Part shown: in pieces, positions 1,919 to 7,643 of the stretch
Layout: the number at the start of each line of letters is the position of its first letter
How positions within the stretch are numbered: the first letter of the stretch is position 1
Source: an uncultured Schlesneria sp.
GTDB lineage: Bacteria; Planctomycetota; Planctomycetia; Planctomycetales; Planctomycetaceae
Reading direction: 5' to 3'
Assembly (NCBI GenBank): GCA_903899985.1
Contig: CAIULL010000163.1
Location: 1 to 48,720 of the forward strand
DNA: 48,720 nt
The notes under the pieces: model-generated
Told to the model about the DNA's origin: nothing
Database searches by the model: none
Seen by the model: only the letters and a program-made list of their open reading frames with translations
Made by a program: the position numbers and the translations under genes

Positions 1919-3334
1919 ATGACACGCGAAACCAAAGTCGGCCTGATGATGGTCGCCCTGCTGGTCGGCGTGTTCGGATTTCTCTTATACCAGCGAATCC
2001 ATCGGCCGGCGGAAGGTCTGGCGGAGCAGGATTCGCCAGAAATCCGCACTCCTCGTTCAGACGACGTCGACTCAAAGGGGGCCGACAACGAATTTGCGAC
2101 TTTTGAACGATCCGACCGACCTGAAAAGGGCCGATCTTCGGTACCCTTGCCCCTACCTGACGTTGATTTTGCAACCTCGGTTTCTGAAACCAATGATCGA
2201 GGTTCAGAGCAGACGAAGAGTCAATGGAAATCCAAGTCAAAGTCGACTGGCACCGCCAGGTCTGACGACGATGGATTTGACCAGTTCGAAAAGAAGGCCA
2301 GCGCGAAGAAACCACATCAGCGGGAACGACCCGTCGAGTCGACCGAAGATTCGTTTGACGAGTTTATGGCGGAAAAACGAGGACAGCGTGAGGTGATTCA
2401 AGTCGCAGCCACGTCGGATTCTGATCCGTTTGCGATCGAAGCAGAGGAGAGCCAGGAGAAACGTGTTCCCGTTCCTGAAGCGGATCGACGACAGAAACCG
2501 CTGGCGATGCCGACGGAGCTGGACGATGTTCCGGCACCAGAATCCAGCTCATCCGGTTTTGACTCCCCCGTTGAACGGGTTGCTCCCGCGAAAGAACCTC
2601 GTCGAATGGATGCGGGTTTTGACGCGGAAATCGACAGGGACCGACCCGGTCAGGATTCAAAAAGTCAGCGGAACAGTCGACCGGCTCGCATTCAGCAGGC
2701 AGGAGATTTAGATAACGGACTCGAGGCTGCTCCCCGAGAAGAGCGGCGAGCGGCCCCGGTCACGTTTGACGACCGGAGTTTTTCACCAGAATCATCGCCA
2801 CGATCCGGGGGTTCGGTCAGCGGACCGAGTTATGTCATCGAGCCAAGCGACAGTTTCTGGACGATTTCGCGTAAGCGATACGGAGCCGGGCGTTATTACA
2901 TGGCGCTGGCAAAGCATAATCAGCAGATCATTTCCGATCCGAAACGGATGAAGCCAGGAGTGGCCATCGCGACCCCGGACGTTTCGGTGTTAGAGCAGCA
3001 GTATCCCGATCTGATTCCCAAAGCCGCCCCGCCCGAACCGGTACCTGCGGTCGCGACCCCACAAGCTCGACAAACTCGCAAGGTGGAAGACTCGGGTCCG
3101 GCAGGCTTTTTCGTTTCTAACGATGGTACTCCGATGTACCGGGTTTCTGGTCAGGACACGCTTTCGGACATTGCCAAATCACATTTAGGCCGTTCGTCCC
3201 GTTGGATACAAATCCTCGAAATGAACCGTAAAGTTCTTCGAGACGGAAATGAACTCAAGATTGGCACGGTTTTGCGACTTCCTCCCGACGCCAGTCGAGT
3301 TCAGGTTGTGGGGACCGCCCGCGAACTCCGATAA
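1919..3334 (+). CDS. Membrane-anchored double-LysM protein in the dcw cluster
   Basis: This 471-residue protein has a short cytoplasmic start, one membrane segment (about residues 9-25) and a long charged, low-complexity linker rich in Asp, Glu, Arg, Ser and Pro. Two LysM-like modules follow at about 304-353 (YVIEPSDSFWTISRKRYG) and 407-457 (YRVSGQDTLSDIAKSHLG). LysM domains bind N-acetylglucosamine-containing glycans such as peptidoglycan, so an inner-membrane protein reaching out to the wall is inferred. A good ribosome site (gaggaagga, 1900-1908) lies 10 bases before the ATG. It sits 84 bases after rsmH and before ftsL/ftsI, an unusual place for a LysM protein; a role in septal or budding-site wall synthesis is inference. 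No catalytic domain is visible. Confidence 0.85.
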   Translation: MTRETKVGLMMVALLVGVFGFLLYQRIHRPAEGLAEQDSPEIRTPRSDDVDSKGADNEFATFERSDRPEKGRSSVPLPLPDVDFATSVSETNDRGSEQTKSQWKSKSKSTGTARSDDDGFDQFEKKASAKKPHQRERPVESTEDSFDEFMAEKRGQREVIQVAATSDSDPFAIEAEESQEKRVPVPEADRRQKPLAMPTELDDVPAPESSSSGFDSPVERVAPAKEPRRMDAGFDAEIDRDRPGQDSKSQRNSRPARIQQAGDLDNGLEAAPREERRAAPVTFDDRSFSPESSPRSGGSVSGPSYVIEPSDSFWTISRKRYGAGRYYMALAKHNQQIISDPKRMKPGVAIATPDVSVLEQQYPDLIPKAAPPEPVPAVATPQARQTRKVEDSGPAGFFVSNDGTPMYRVSGQDTLSDIAKSHLGRSSRWIQILEMNRKVLRDGNELKIGTVLRLPPDASRVQVVGTARELR

Positions 3335-3429
3335 CGAATCTGGTGCCGCAGGGCCCGCGTTGTTTGCAGAGGGTAAGCCGCGACAACGGTTTGCCAGAGG
3401 CGGCCACTTCATGACCATGAGGTTGAACG

Positions 3430-3735
3430 ATGTTTTTTCGTTTCGGAGCAGTCCTCAGTCTGATTGTGCTGGTGGCGCTGACCGGAACGGCGATTGAGAA
3501 GCAGATCCTGCAATTGAAACGTGCGATCACTCATCAGCAATACCGTCTGGATGTGTTGCTTGATTCGCACGTCCGATTGCGATTAGAAGCACAACGTCTC
3601 GGGACACCTGCGAGCTTGCTGGGACCGCTCGAACGTGGCGAGCTTCCCCTGGAACGACCGACAAAACCGCGTCGGACCGACGCACGACAAATTCCTGCGA
3701 ACGCTCTGAACCAGCCATCGGGAACACCCGGCTGA
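3430..3735 (+). CDS. FtsL-like septum-formation protein
   Basis: A 101-residue bitopic protein with one membrane segment at about residues 5-23, then a heptad-rich stretch (about 24-58, starting EKQILQLKRAI) and a Pro/Arg-rich tail. This size and layout, and its place directly before the FtsI-type transpeptidase, fit FtsL, which forms a trimeric complex with FtsB and FtsQ and activates FtsWI. FtsL proteins diverge strongly, so the call rests on topology and synteny more than on sequence. The ribosome site gagg (3419-3422) lies 7 bases before the ATG. Its stop codon is separated from the next ATG by one base, which suggests translational coupling to the transpeptidase. Confidence 0.75.
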   Translation: MFFRFGAVLSLIVLVALTGTAIEKQILQLKRAITHQQYRLDVLLDSHVRLRLEAQRLGTPASLLGPLERGELPLERPTKPRRTDARQIPANALNQPSGTPG

Positions 3736-3736
3736 G

Positions 3737-5494
3737 ATGTCAAACATTCAAAACAATCGTGAGGCTGTCCTTCATCCGGTCCGGGCACGTCTGGTTGTGA
3801 CGATCATTGGTTTAGGCTGGCTTGTGTTGTCTGCTCGACTGATTCAGCTTCAATGGGTGCAGCGAGACAAATTCGCAGTTAAAGCAGAGCAGCAGCGGGA
3901 GCTTGTCGAAGAAACGCCGGCCAGACCTGGTGATATTCTTGATCGGCAAGGTCGTTTACTCGCGACGACTCTGGCGACTCGAAGTCTTTACCTTGTCCCC
4001 GCAAAGATTTCAGAGCCACGTCAGATTGCGGAGGCTTTGTCGAGTGTCCTTGGCTTAAGTCCTGAGGTCTTGACGGAGAAGATTGCTGGTAATTCGCAGC
4101 GACAATTCCTTTGGGTCAAGCGGCGTCTGACCGAAGCAGAGGTGACAGGTGTCAGAAAGTTAATGCTGCCGAAAGGGGCGTGGGGTTTTCGAGACGAATA
4201 CCGACGCGAGTACCCTCAAGGGGTGGTCGCCGCTCAAGTGATTGGTTTGCGTGATATTGACGGAACTGGCAGGGGCGGGATTGAAGAACGATTTGATTCG
4301 ACTCTACGGGGACAGAGCGGCAAGCGTTATGTGGCGCGGGACTCACGCGGGCACGTGATTGAAATCCTTGATAAAGATCAGCAGGCACCGGTGGCAGGTC
4401 AAAACGTCCGATTGACCCTGGATGTGGTTGTTCAGCTTTATGCCGAACGGGAACTCGATCAGGTGATGACGGAATGGCAACCAGAAAGCTGCTCTGCCAT
4501 CGTCATCGATCCCAAAAATGGCGACGTCCTGGCGATGGCAACGCGTCCGACGTTTGATCCGAATCGTCCGCAGGAAGCTTCACCAGAATCGTGGAAGAAC
4601 CGAGCAATCGCAGATATTTATGAACCCGGTTCGACGTTCAAACCAATGATTGTCAGTTACGGACTTGATCAAGGGGTCTTGCAACGAGATGAAAGCTTTC
4701 ACTGCCAGAATGGCGAATACCGGATGGGTCGACGGGTGCTGCACGACCACCACCGATACGGGTTGCTCAGCCTGACCGACGTCCTGGTGAAGTCGAGTAA
4801 CATCGGCATGGCAAAAATCGGCGAACGAATGGGAAATGAACAGCTGGAAAAAGCGGCCACGCTGTTTGGATTTGGACGTAAAACCGGGATTGAATTACCA
4901 GGCGAGCTGCCCGGCATCTTACGACCTCTCAAGAAATGGACCAGCTATTCAACCGGCTCGATTCCGATGGGACACGAAATCGCGACGACTCCGCTCCAAT
5001 TAATCACGGCGCATGCGGCGCTGGCGAATGGTGGTGAACTTCTCCGTCCACGAATCGTGCTGCCGGATCAAGACGATTCGCTTTCCGCCATGTCCCGGAT
5101 GACGATCTCGACTGTTTCGCGAGATACCGCACAATGGATCATTGAACATCCGATGCGAGAGGTCGTGGAGAGAGGGACCGGTAAAAAGGCAAGAATTCCG
5201 GGATATCACGTGTTCGGAAAAACGGGTACGGCTCAGTGTCTGTCTGCCGATGGAGGATATGTTCACGGGAAATATATCAGTTCGTTCGTTTGCGGTGCCC
5301 CTGTGGAATCACCGCGGCTTTTGACATTGGTCGTTGTTAATCAATCTTCCGTCGGAGGTGAAACATTTGGCGGAAAAGTTGCGGCACCTGCGGCTGCGAA
5401 CATTTTGCGACAGGCACTGGTGTACCTGAGAATCTCGCCCGACGACCAGCTGATTCGGGCTGCCGCGAATTGGAAGGACGACGAACTCGAATAA
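3737..5494 (+). CDS. ftsI: Penicillin-binding protein, FtsI/PBP3-type transpeptidase
   Basis: Class B penicillin-binding protein of 585 residues that cross-links peptidoglycan outside the cytoplasmic membrane. A single membrane anchor (about 18-38) is followed by the dimerisation/pedestal region starting at ETPARPGDILDRQGRLLATT. The transpeptidase domain carries all three active-site motifs: STFK with nucleophile Ser299, SSN at 353-355 and KTG at 495-497. There are no C-terminal PASTA domains. It follows the FtsL-like gene after one base. In classical dcw clusters murE follows ftsI; here the next gene, more than 300 bases on, is unrelated, so the operon probably ends at 5494. The FtsI label over other class B PBPs rests on its position beside rsmH and ftsL. 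Confidence 0.93.
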   Translation: MSNIQNNREAVLHPVRARLVVTIIGLGWLVLSARLIQLQWVQRDKFAVKAEQQRELVEETPARPGDILDRQGRLLATTLATRSLYLVPAKISEPRQIAEALSSVLGLSPEVLTEKIAGNSQRQFLWVKRRLTEAEVTGVRKLMLPKGAWGFRDEYRREYPQGVVAAQVIGLRDIDGTGRGGIEERFDSTLRGQSGKRYVARDSRGHVIEILDKDQQAPVAGQNVRLTLDVVVQLYAERELDQVMTEWQPESCSAIVIDPKNGDVLAMATRPTFDPNRPQEASPESWKNRAIADIYEPGSTFKPMIVSYGLDQGVLQRDESFHCQNGEYRMGRRVLHDHHRYGLLSLTDVLVKSSNIGMAKIGERMGNEQLEKAATLFGFGRKTGIELPGELPGILRPLKKWTSYSTGSIPMGHEIATTPLQLITAHAALANGGELLRPRIVLPDQDDSLSAMSRMTISTVSRDTAQWIIEHPMREVVERGTGKKARIPGYHVFGKTGTAQCLSADGGYVHGKYISSFVCGAPVESPRLLTLVVVNQSSVGGETFGGKVAAPAAANILRQALVYLRISPDDQLIRAAANWKDDELE

Positions 5495-6861: not shown

Positions 6862-7301
6862 GCACTATATTCGAAGCAGTACATGACCATTCAAGCTGAG
6901 GTGCGAAATCTTTCATGTCTTGATTTTCATCAGAAACGGTAATGCTTCCGATTGTATCGATCGTACAATCGACCAGATTAAGGCCTCAGGAAAATGAGCC
7001 AAAGACGTCAGATTCTGATGACAGCTTGTCTCGGAAAACCGATCATCCCGACAGAAAACGGATTCCCTTCGCTTCGCCGCTTGACAACGTCTGAAAACTC
7101 GACTAATGGTTCTGTCGCCTTGGCTTCGTAAGGGTAAAGCGGGAAGTTCAAGGTGGCCAGAATTGTGACTGAAGTAATTCGTCCCAAAAAATTGTGACGG
7201 ACGAAATAAAGTCGGTTGCCTTCGACGTTTTTGCATTTAAGATCTCTCGTCCGTTTTTAATTTTTGAGTCCCGTAAGTACGAGTATTTGAGGTTTGCTCC
7301 G
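6862..7301. other. Intergenic region, no feature recognised
   Basis: This 440-base gap shows no convincing reading frame, tRNA or terminator hairpin. It becomes AT-rich before the Asp-rich gene (7190-7280), where a promoter is plausible but not identifiable. Confidence 0.4.
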
Positions 7302-7643
7302 ATGACCAGAGTCTTGCTCGAAGTAGAACATGCACTGGCCGCTTGGCTCCCTGACACACCTGAGGGGCTCTTCCCAGGGTCTTCTACGGATGTTGTTGTC
7401 GCACCAAGAATGGCTGACGATGATGATGCCGCGCCTGCCGACGACGAAGATGGCTTCGGCGACGACGACGAATTCGAAGACGATGATGATGAGCTCGATG
7501 AGTTGGACGACGAAGATGAACTCGACGACGAATTTGATGAATTCGATGACGAAGACGAGTTTGATGACGACGATGATTTCGACGATGACGATGACGACGA
7601 AGATGACGATGAAGACGACGATGACGACGACGACGATTATTAA
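7302..7643 (+). CDS. Small, extremely aspartate-rich protein
   Basis: The predicted product is 113 residues. About 36 N-terminal residues are of ordinary composition (MTRVLLEVEHALAAWLPDTP). From MADDDDAAP on, almost every residue is Asp or Glu, spaced by Phe, Leu or Gly in DDEFDEFDDED-like blocks, and the end is nearly pure Asp closed by Tyr. The tail is coded by alternating GAC and GAT, so it is not a simple trinucleotide slippage tract. The ribosome site gagg (7289-7292) lies 9 bases before the ATG; an internal ATG at 7410 would give only the acidic part. No domain is recognised. It could bind divalent cations or basic proteins, but that is speculation from composition. It precedes the purine nucleoside phosphorylase gene. 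Confidence 0.6.
   Translation: MTRVLLEVEHALAAWLPDTPEGLFPGSSTDVVVAPRMADDDDAAPADDEDGFGDDDEFEDDDDELDELDDEDELDDEFDEFDDEDEFDDDDDFDDDDDDEDDDEDDDDDDDDY

Follow-up and report, generated by a model that had tools for sequence, protein, structure and literature searches.

A tandem-LysM membrane protein encoded among the division genes of Planctomycetia is a candidate membrane-to-glycan tether

We describe here a gene for a membrane-anchored protein with two LysM domains that lies within the division and cell wall (dcw) gene cluster of an uncultured Schlesneria sp. (Planctomycetota; Planctomycetia; Planctomycetaceae), in a 48,720-nucleotide stretch of DNA that we refer to as the window. The gene stands between rsmH and the genes for an FtsL-like protein and the transpeptidase FtsI, recurs at this place through much of Planctomycetia, and is matched by membrane LysM genes at other places in the dcw clusters of further Planctomycetota and of Verrucomicrobiota. 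We judge it somewhat better than an even chance (a probability of roughly 0.55) that the protein is an old dcw-encoded tether between membrane and glycan which in the window's family is linked to the FtsL/FtsI pair, and that it is not a replacement for FtsZ. Handles beginning with G, C, L and f denote genomes, contigs, loci and families, respectively.

Results

The LysM gene (positions 1919 to 3334 of the + strand, which carries all the window features described by gene or domain below) encodes a protein of 471 residues, characterized here from its open reading frame (ORF), Pfam searches, alignment and an AlphaFold2 model. A membrane helix at residues 3-28 (1925 to 2002), in a stretch starting MTRETKVGL, is modeled with block values of the predicted local distance difference test (pLDDT) of 79-93. 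The helix is followed by a charged and poorly conserved linker, residues 31-300 (2009 to 2818), which contains 42 lysines and arginines, 59 aspartates and glutamates and 24 prolines; its pLDDT is mostly below 50, and residues 35-297 are modeled as mostly low-confidence chain. LysM domain 1 (residues 301-362; 2819 to 3004) and LysM domain 2 (residues 395-458; 3101 to 3292) appear in the model as two high-confidence beta-alpha-alpha-beta domains spanning residues 304-361 and 396-460. The model as a whole has a predicted template modeling score (pTM) of 0.30 and is trusted for the helix and the two LysM domains only.

Domain 2 is recognized by the Pfam LysM model PF01476 (E 9e-7; 29.2 bits against a cut-off of 20.9). 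Domain 1 is missed by that model alone, and its region gives E 0.22 against LysM2_NFP in Pfam, yet it aligns with a LysM domain that is conserved in the family and the class and it has the LysM fold in the AlphaFold2 model. Consistent with this assignment, the best Foldseek match of the model is the tandem LysM of PDB entry 4uz2 (E 4e-4), and the family LysM profile matches LysM chains in the PDB, including the 4uz2 sequence at E 2e-5. An initial sequence-only reading of the window had described a double-LysM protein anchored in the membrane and bearing domains of glycan-binding type, and the helix and the tandem LysM bear this out. Pfam gave no match to a LytM/M23 domain in the protein up to E 1 and showed no other catalytic or activator domain.

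Conservation is very uneven along the chain. Compared with its homolog at L008, from a member of the same genus (50% identity overall), the protein is identical at 29 of 30 positions in the helix stretch, at 46 of 62 and 54 of 64 in the two LysM domains, and at only 68 of 270 in the linker. Since the linker is so variable next to a conserved helix and conserved LysM domains, it looks like a spacer, and the figures tell against a binding face there. A conserved helix and conserved LysM domains separated by an unconserved spacer are as expected for a tether.

The window carries, head to tail, rsmH (920-1834), the LysM gene, the FtsL-like gene (3430-3735) and ftsI (3737-5494), separated by gaps of 84, 95 and 1 bp; the ORFs and Pfam matches thus confirm the gene order that had been read from the sequence. 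In 32 of the 37 genomes of the window's family rsmH is followed by the LysM gene, and the other five (G025, G026, G030, G031 and G033) are not settled, rsmH being unfound or at a contig edge; the sole rsmH match of G033 is weaker than in its kin and has a reverse-strand ORF after it. In 31 of the 37, ftsI shares contig and strand with the LysM gene and lies downstream of it, past an FtsL-like gene. Two genomes, G017 and G023, retain rsmH, LysM and the FtsL-like gene with no ftsI behind them: the next genes encode a flavin reductase and an FAD oxidase in G017 and an FAD oxidase in G023. G017 has no match to the window FtsI at E 1e-40, and G023 has a 36%-identical penicillin-binding protein (PBP) elsewhere in its genome. 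Two further genomes, G286 (L290/L291) and G306 (L292/L293), keep LysM, ftsL and ftsI as a unit ~379 and ~407 kb, respectively, away from rsmH; the LysM gene of G306 is at L292 3196-5178. This joint movement in one genus favors a link of the LysM protein to the FtsL/FtsI pair. A tie to rsmH alone is ruled out by G286 and G306, and a tie to ftsI alone by retention of the gene without a window-type FtsI, as in G017 and G023.

Across the class, at least 86 of 118 genomes have a LysM match no more than 5.5 kb behind rsmH on the same strand, a recurrence that excludes a chance arrangement and, with that in the family, a strain-specific insertion. The count is a lower one because some weaker second LysM places and second rsmH copies were left out, and G340 has no listed rsmH place. 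Broken down by family, the lower counts are 28/30 (f1), 24/29 (f2), 18/25 (f3), 2/2 (f4), 4/14 (f5), 1/1 (f6), 1/3 (f7), 3/4 (f73), 2/2 (f74), 1/1 (f75), 0/4 (f76), 0/1 (f77), 1/1 (f78) and 1/1 (f79). Beyond the 86, LysM lies directly behind rsmH in G329 and G303 (the latter weak, domain E 0.0012), and in G283 it follows at 1.4 kb, after a 402-residue ORF; G051 was likewise added. The gene is therefore conserved at the same place in much of Planctomycetia, and in the window's family it tracks ftsL and ftsI even away from rsmH. The tandem-LysM profile matches 112 of the 118 genomes, other LysM genes included, and rsmH matches all 118. One f3 genus includes several genomes in which a frame change, or a stop within the match, separates the LysM pair from the linker.

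The gene persists in lineages that have lost other parts of the cluster. In 21 genomes of f2-f5 and f7, murG matches are never strong (best E 2e-11) and the window FtsI has no match at E 1e-40, yet LysM is found behind rsmH in 15 of these genomes (G038-G040, G042-G044, G046-G048, G050, G051, G053, G055, G056 and G058). Three of these (G051, G046 and G047) were scored by ORF coordinates, their ORFs overlapping rsmH, and G040 and G051 have a single LysM only. The six without LysM behind rsmH are G037, G045, G049, G052, G054 and G057; rsmH of G037 is near a contig end, and the LysM match is on another contig. PMC12283558 reports that murG, murJ, ftsW and others were lost in Pirellulales, Isosphaerales and Gemmatales, which the lack of strong murG matches fits, and that murB, mraW (rsmH) and ftsK are the only dcw genes retained throughout the Planctomycetes-Verrucomicrobia-Chlamydiae (PVC) group.

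Lacipirellula limnantheis and the four examined genomes of f76 have no LysM behind rsmH; at that place we observed an ORF of 118-139 residues that combines a single membrane helix with a short linker (L066 10870-11226 in L. limnantheis; L294 8526-8930, L295 1754-2110, L296 1635-2054 and L297 1689-2063 in f76). This bare anchor may be the LysM protein in reduced form. No such ORF was seen in G045 (f7), G322 or G295.

Outside the class we read 75 planctomycete rsmH loci. LysM stands near rsmH at 8 of them (counting L169 and L175, where one or two small ORFs intervene), and at least 15 have it farther down the dcw cluster, a lower count because L165 and L203, where one of two labelings shows a LysM gene, are placed among the 37 without LysM that are weighed below. 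At 11 of the 15, LysM is directly behind ftsW, and at 7 of these murG comes next; another 15 of the 75 loci have too little flank. Three further loci, in family f9, have LysM between rsmH and a PBP gene, and a clade containing a Phycisphaeraceae genome likewise has LysM behind rsmH. Of 40 verrucomicrobial regions, 20 yielded an ftsW; a membrane LysM gene directly precedes it in 19 of these, itself preceded by murD in 18 and by mraY, as labeled gene, in one (L264). The remaining ftsW (L252) has no LysM, one other region ends after murD-LysM, and ftsW was unfound in 19 of the 40. According to its legend, Fig. 7B of PMC4803751 marks LysM genes near verrucomicrobial murB/C.

Of the clusters with LysM, 35 can be read as far as ftsW, and each of these carries exactly one LysM gene, which lies farther down among the mur and ftsW genes in 33 and near rsmH in two (L175 and L188). 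The recurrent place of LysM among rsmH, ftsL, ftsI, mur and ftsW genes in distant genomes makes it a member of the dcw cluster in these groups. At rsmH loci from other bacteria (67 in all, 40 extending to ftsW and 49 having at least 8.5 kb of flank) no LysM was found with our profiles, which for all LysM counts given here were grown from planctomycete sequences and may miss divergent LysM; this agrees with the premise that LysM proteins are not usual dcw members elsewhere. In a quick rsmH tree the state of having LysM behind rsmH is clustered, with 10 changes against 34.4 after shuffling. This tree has many open forks and an outgroup that does not hold together, and it shows clustering, not the number of origins. 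It left out 14 f1 loci, the second rsmH copy L046, L064, L065, L067, L069 and 30 of the 40 verrucomicrobial regions; L175 was set to 'behind rsmH' by hand, and f9 attaches to the class by a long branch.

FtsZ exceeded the cut-off in none of 157 Planctomycetota genomes, in line with the expected lack of FtsZ in the phylum. Weak FtsZ/tubulin-like matches below the cut-off were seen in six (G157, G067, G127, G112, G193 and G141; L224-L229). FtsZ is present in the two verrucomicrobial genomes tested, G211 and G212, whose scores of 277 and 292 bits fall slightly short of the curated 295. Both have a membrane LysM gene in the dcw cluster, at another position and with orthology not proven, so that such genes are not confined to genomes in which FtsZ is absent.

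The product of rsmH (mraW) is a 16S rRNA methyltransferase of 304 residues (Methyltransf_5, PF01795, E 7e-80). Its probable start is the ATG at 920, where matches in close relatives begin; the ORF list gives a TTG at 740. A second, diverged rsmH copy lies at G000 C239:2896-3810, and several class genomes likewise have second copies. FtsI is a class B transpeptidase of FtsI/PBP3 type with 585 residues that contains transpeptidase (PF00905, E 2e-68) and PBP dimer (PF03717, E 2e-18) domains and the motifs STFK, SSN and KTG, and so has the full set of features of this type (SxxK, SxN and KTG). The 101-residue product of 3430-3735 is a small single-pass protein with a coiled-coil-like segment, directly upstream of ftsI as FtsL would be. 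Pfam FtsL models gave no match to it up to E 1, and we call it FtsL-like on its position, topology, family conservation and weak profile matches; beyond the family, its profile also weakly matches the ORF that separates the PBP gene from rsmH or LysM (L149, E 1.4e-4; L036, E 4.5e-4).

The window lies on contig C163 of an 8.0 Mb genome. The ORF after ftsI is not a dcw gene, as judged from its translation without a Pfam run, and murG is on a different contig (C13). The description of the cluster as reduced thus holds on the downstream side; the contig starts 919 bp before rsmH, and genes farther upstream are therefore not visible. Positions 1-660, ahead of rsmH, are repeat-like, and an ORF at 7194-7643 carries a long run of acidic residues.

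Discussion

We propose that the LysM protein is a single-pass protein of the inner membrane, its helix preceded by a short cytoplasmic tip and followed by ~270 residues of flexible periplasmic spacer and two distal LysM domains, and that it would hold a membrane complex against glycan strands containing N-acetylglucosamine (GlcNAc). In the window's family the complex so held is probably FtsL/FtsI, encoded in the same gene string. We would place it with the other membrane LysM proteins encoded in dcw clusters of Planctomycetota and Verrucomicrobiota, whose genes stand beside ftsW in Verrucomicrobiota and several planctomycete lineages and behind rsmH in much of Planctomycetia and the Phycisphaeraceae-containing clade, two positions that may have a common origin. 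It would be an old accessory of wall synthesis and division that outlasted the loss of FtsZ without replacing it.

The same architecture could serve a general envelope tether, joining the inner membrane to the glycan layer with no special role in division and with the rsmH/ftsI neighborhood merely inherited as gene order. Retention behind rsmH in lineages that lack a window-type FtsI or MurG would follow naturally, as would a long spacer of unconserved sequence. We nevertheless regard this as rather unlikely, because the two placements beside division genes (ftsW; rsmH/ftsL) and the joint movement with ftsL-ftsI suggest a link to division or the septal wall.

The sequence-only reading had gone further, proposing that the protein recruits FtsI to existing peptidoglycan and so positions division in place of FtsZ. 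The association of LysM, ftsL and ftsI in the family, even with rsmH elsewhere, and the lack of FtsZ over the cut-off throughout the sampled Planctomycetota speak for such a model. A substitute for FtsZ that recruits FtsI is argued against by the fact that LysM outlives both ftsI and murG and has a counterpart in FtsZ-bearing Verrucomicrobiota, and a poorly conserved linker adds to the difficulty. According to PMC6952346, deletion of ftsI in Planctopirus limnophila gave no phenotype, and both ftsI and ftsW can be deleted with growth and budding kept, ΔftsW cells being more spherical; PMC10632474 adds mraW1, mraW2, ftsQ and others to the dispensable genes of this species. We consider the model improbable. 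Recruitment of FtsI fits the tracking of ftsL/ftsI in the family but cannot be the whole role of a protein that is kept in 15 of 21 genomes without a match to the window FtsI and in G017 and G023. Two findings had been named in advance as telling against the model: occurrence in this strain only is contradicted by the distribution in the class, whereas presence in FtsZ-containing dcw clusters was found in part, in Verrucomicrobiota and at another position.

Several known systems offer points of comparison. Like the window protein, the two verrucomicrobial murD-LysM-ftsW proteins examined have one helix, a spacer and C-terminal LysM within a dcw cluster; the verrucomicrobial proteins differ in having 1-3 LysM domains (two in the window), in lying between murD and ftsW (rsmH and ftsL in the window) and in occurring with FtsZ in the two genomes tested. 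The T. thermophilus NlpC/P60 endopeptidase of 4uz2 shares the tandem LysM fold, which it joins to a peptidase, whereas the window protein joins it to a membrane helix and a linker. FtsN-type proteins have a membrane helix, a long flexible linker and a terminal glycan-binding SPOR domain; the layout is the same as that of the window protein, the terminal wall-binding domain is different, and the likeness would be one of analogy, no homology being claimed. NlpD has a LysM module and a lipoprotein anchor, and proteins of this LysM-LytM type share with the window protein a wall-binding module linked to division, but they carry a LytM domain and are anchored as lipoproteins, whereas the window protein has no LytM domain and a membrane helix instead; we therefore reject an NlpD homolog. 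A hydrolase adaptor like NlpD/EnvC, which would use its LysM end to bring in or activate an amidase where the cell divides, is very improbable: LysM is the wall-binding part of NlpD, but no LytM/M23, catalytic or activator domain was found.

A number of observations weigh against the tether that we favor. At 37 of the 75 planctomycete loci outside the class, all 37 with enough flank, no LysM was found in the stretch read, and 26 of the 37 hold ftsW or murG there, and parts of the class (f76, 0/4; f77, 0/1; f5, 4/14) lack it behind rsmH; the gene is thus not indispensable. In 13 genomes with a split cluster, which we guess from gene order to be Chlamydiia, LysM is beside ftsW in none (ftsW of L278 is unlabeled), and we reject the idea that the ftsW-side arrangement extends to them. 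Some LysM copies may be decaying, since the LysM pair of G038 is in a different frame from the linker (L045 8013-9889) and a stop interrupts the LysM matches of G056, G276, G311 and a few others. Whether the MurG-less families make peptidoglycan in the canonical way is doubtful. The putative orthology of the ftsW-side and rsmH-side genes is argued from architecture and from one gene per cluster, and LysM domains are short and common; only two near-rsmH clusters are readable to ftsW, and the N-terminal motifs of the two types differ.

The literature that we searched contains no study of the planctomycete gene, and two older synteny studies (Jogler 2012 and Pilhofer 2008) may list it. A dcw gene conserved in this way, which goes with ftsL/ftsI in one family and persists without them elsewhere, is a concrete candidate for a part in the FtsZ-less budding of Planctomycetia, and its retention in MurG-less genomes gives a handle on the kind of glycan in such cells. 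More speculatively, and we think this quite unlikely, the dcw membrane LysM could be among the final remnants of the ancestral cluster, outliving FtsZ, FtsI and MurG; it may link the membrane machinery of budding planctomycetes to a glycan other than canonical peptidoglycan made from lipid II, and in f76 and Lacipirellula it may have shrunk to an anchor. If so, the bare anchors of these lineages would be a stepwise record of the uncoupling of division from peptidoglycan.

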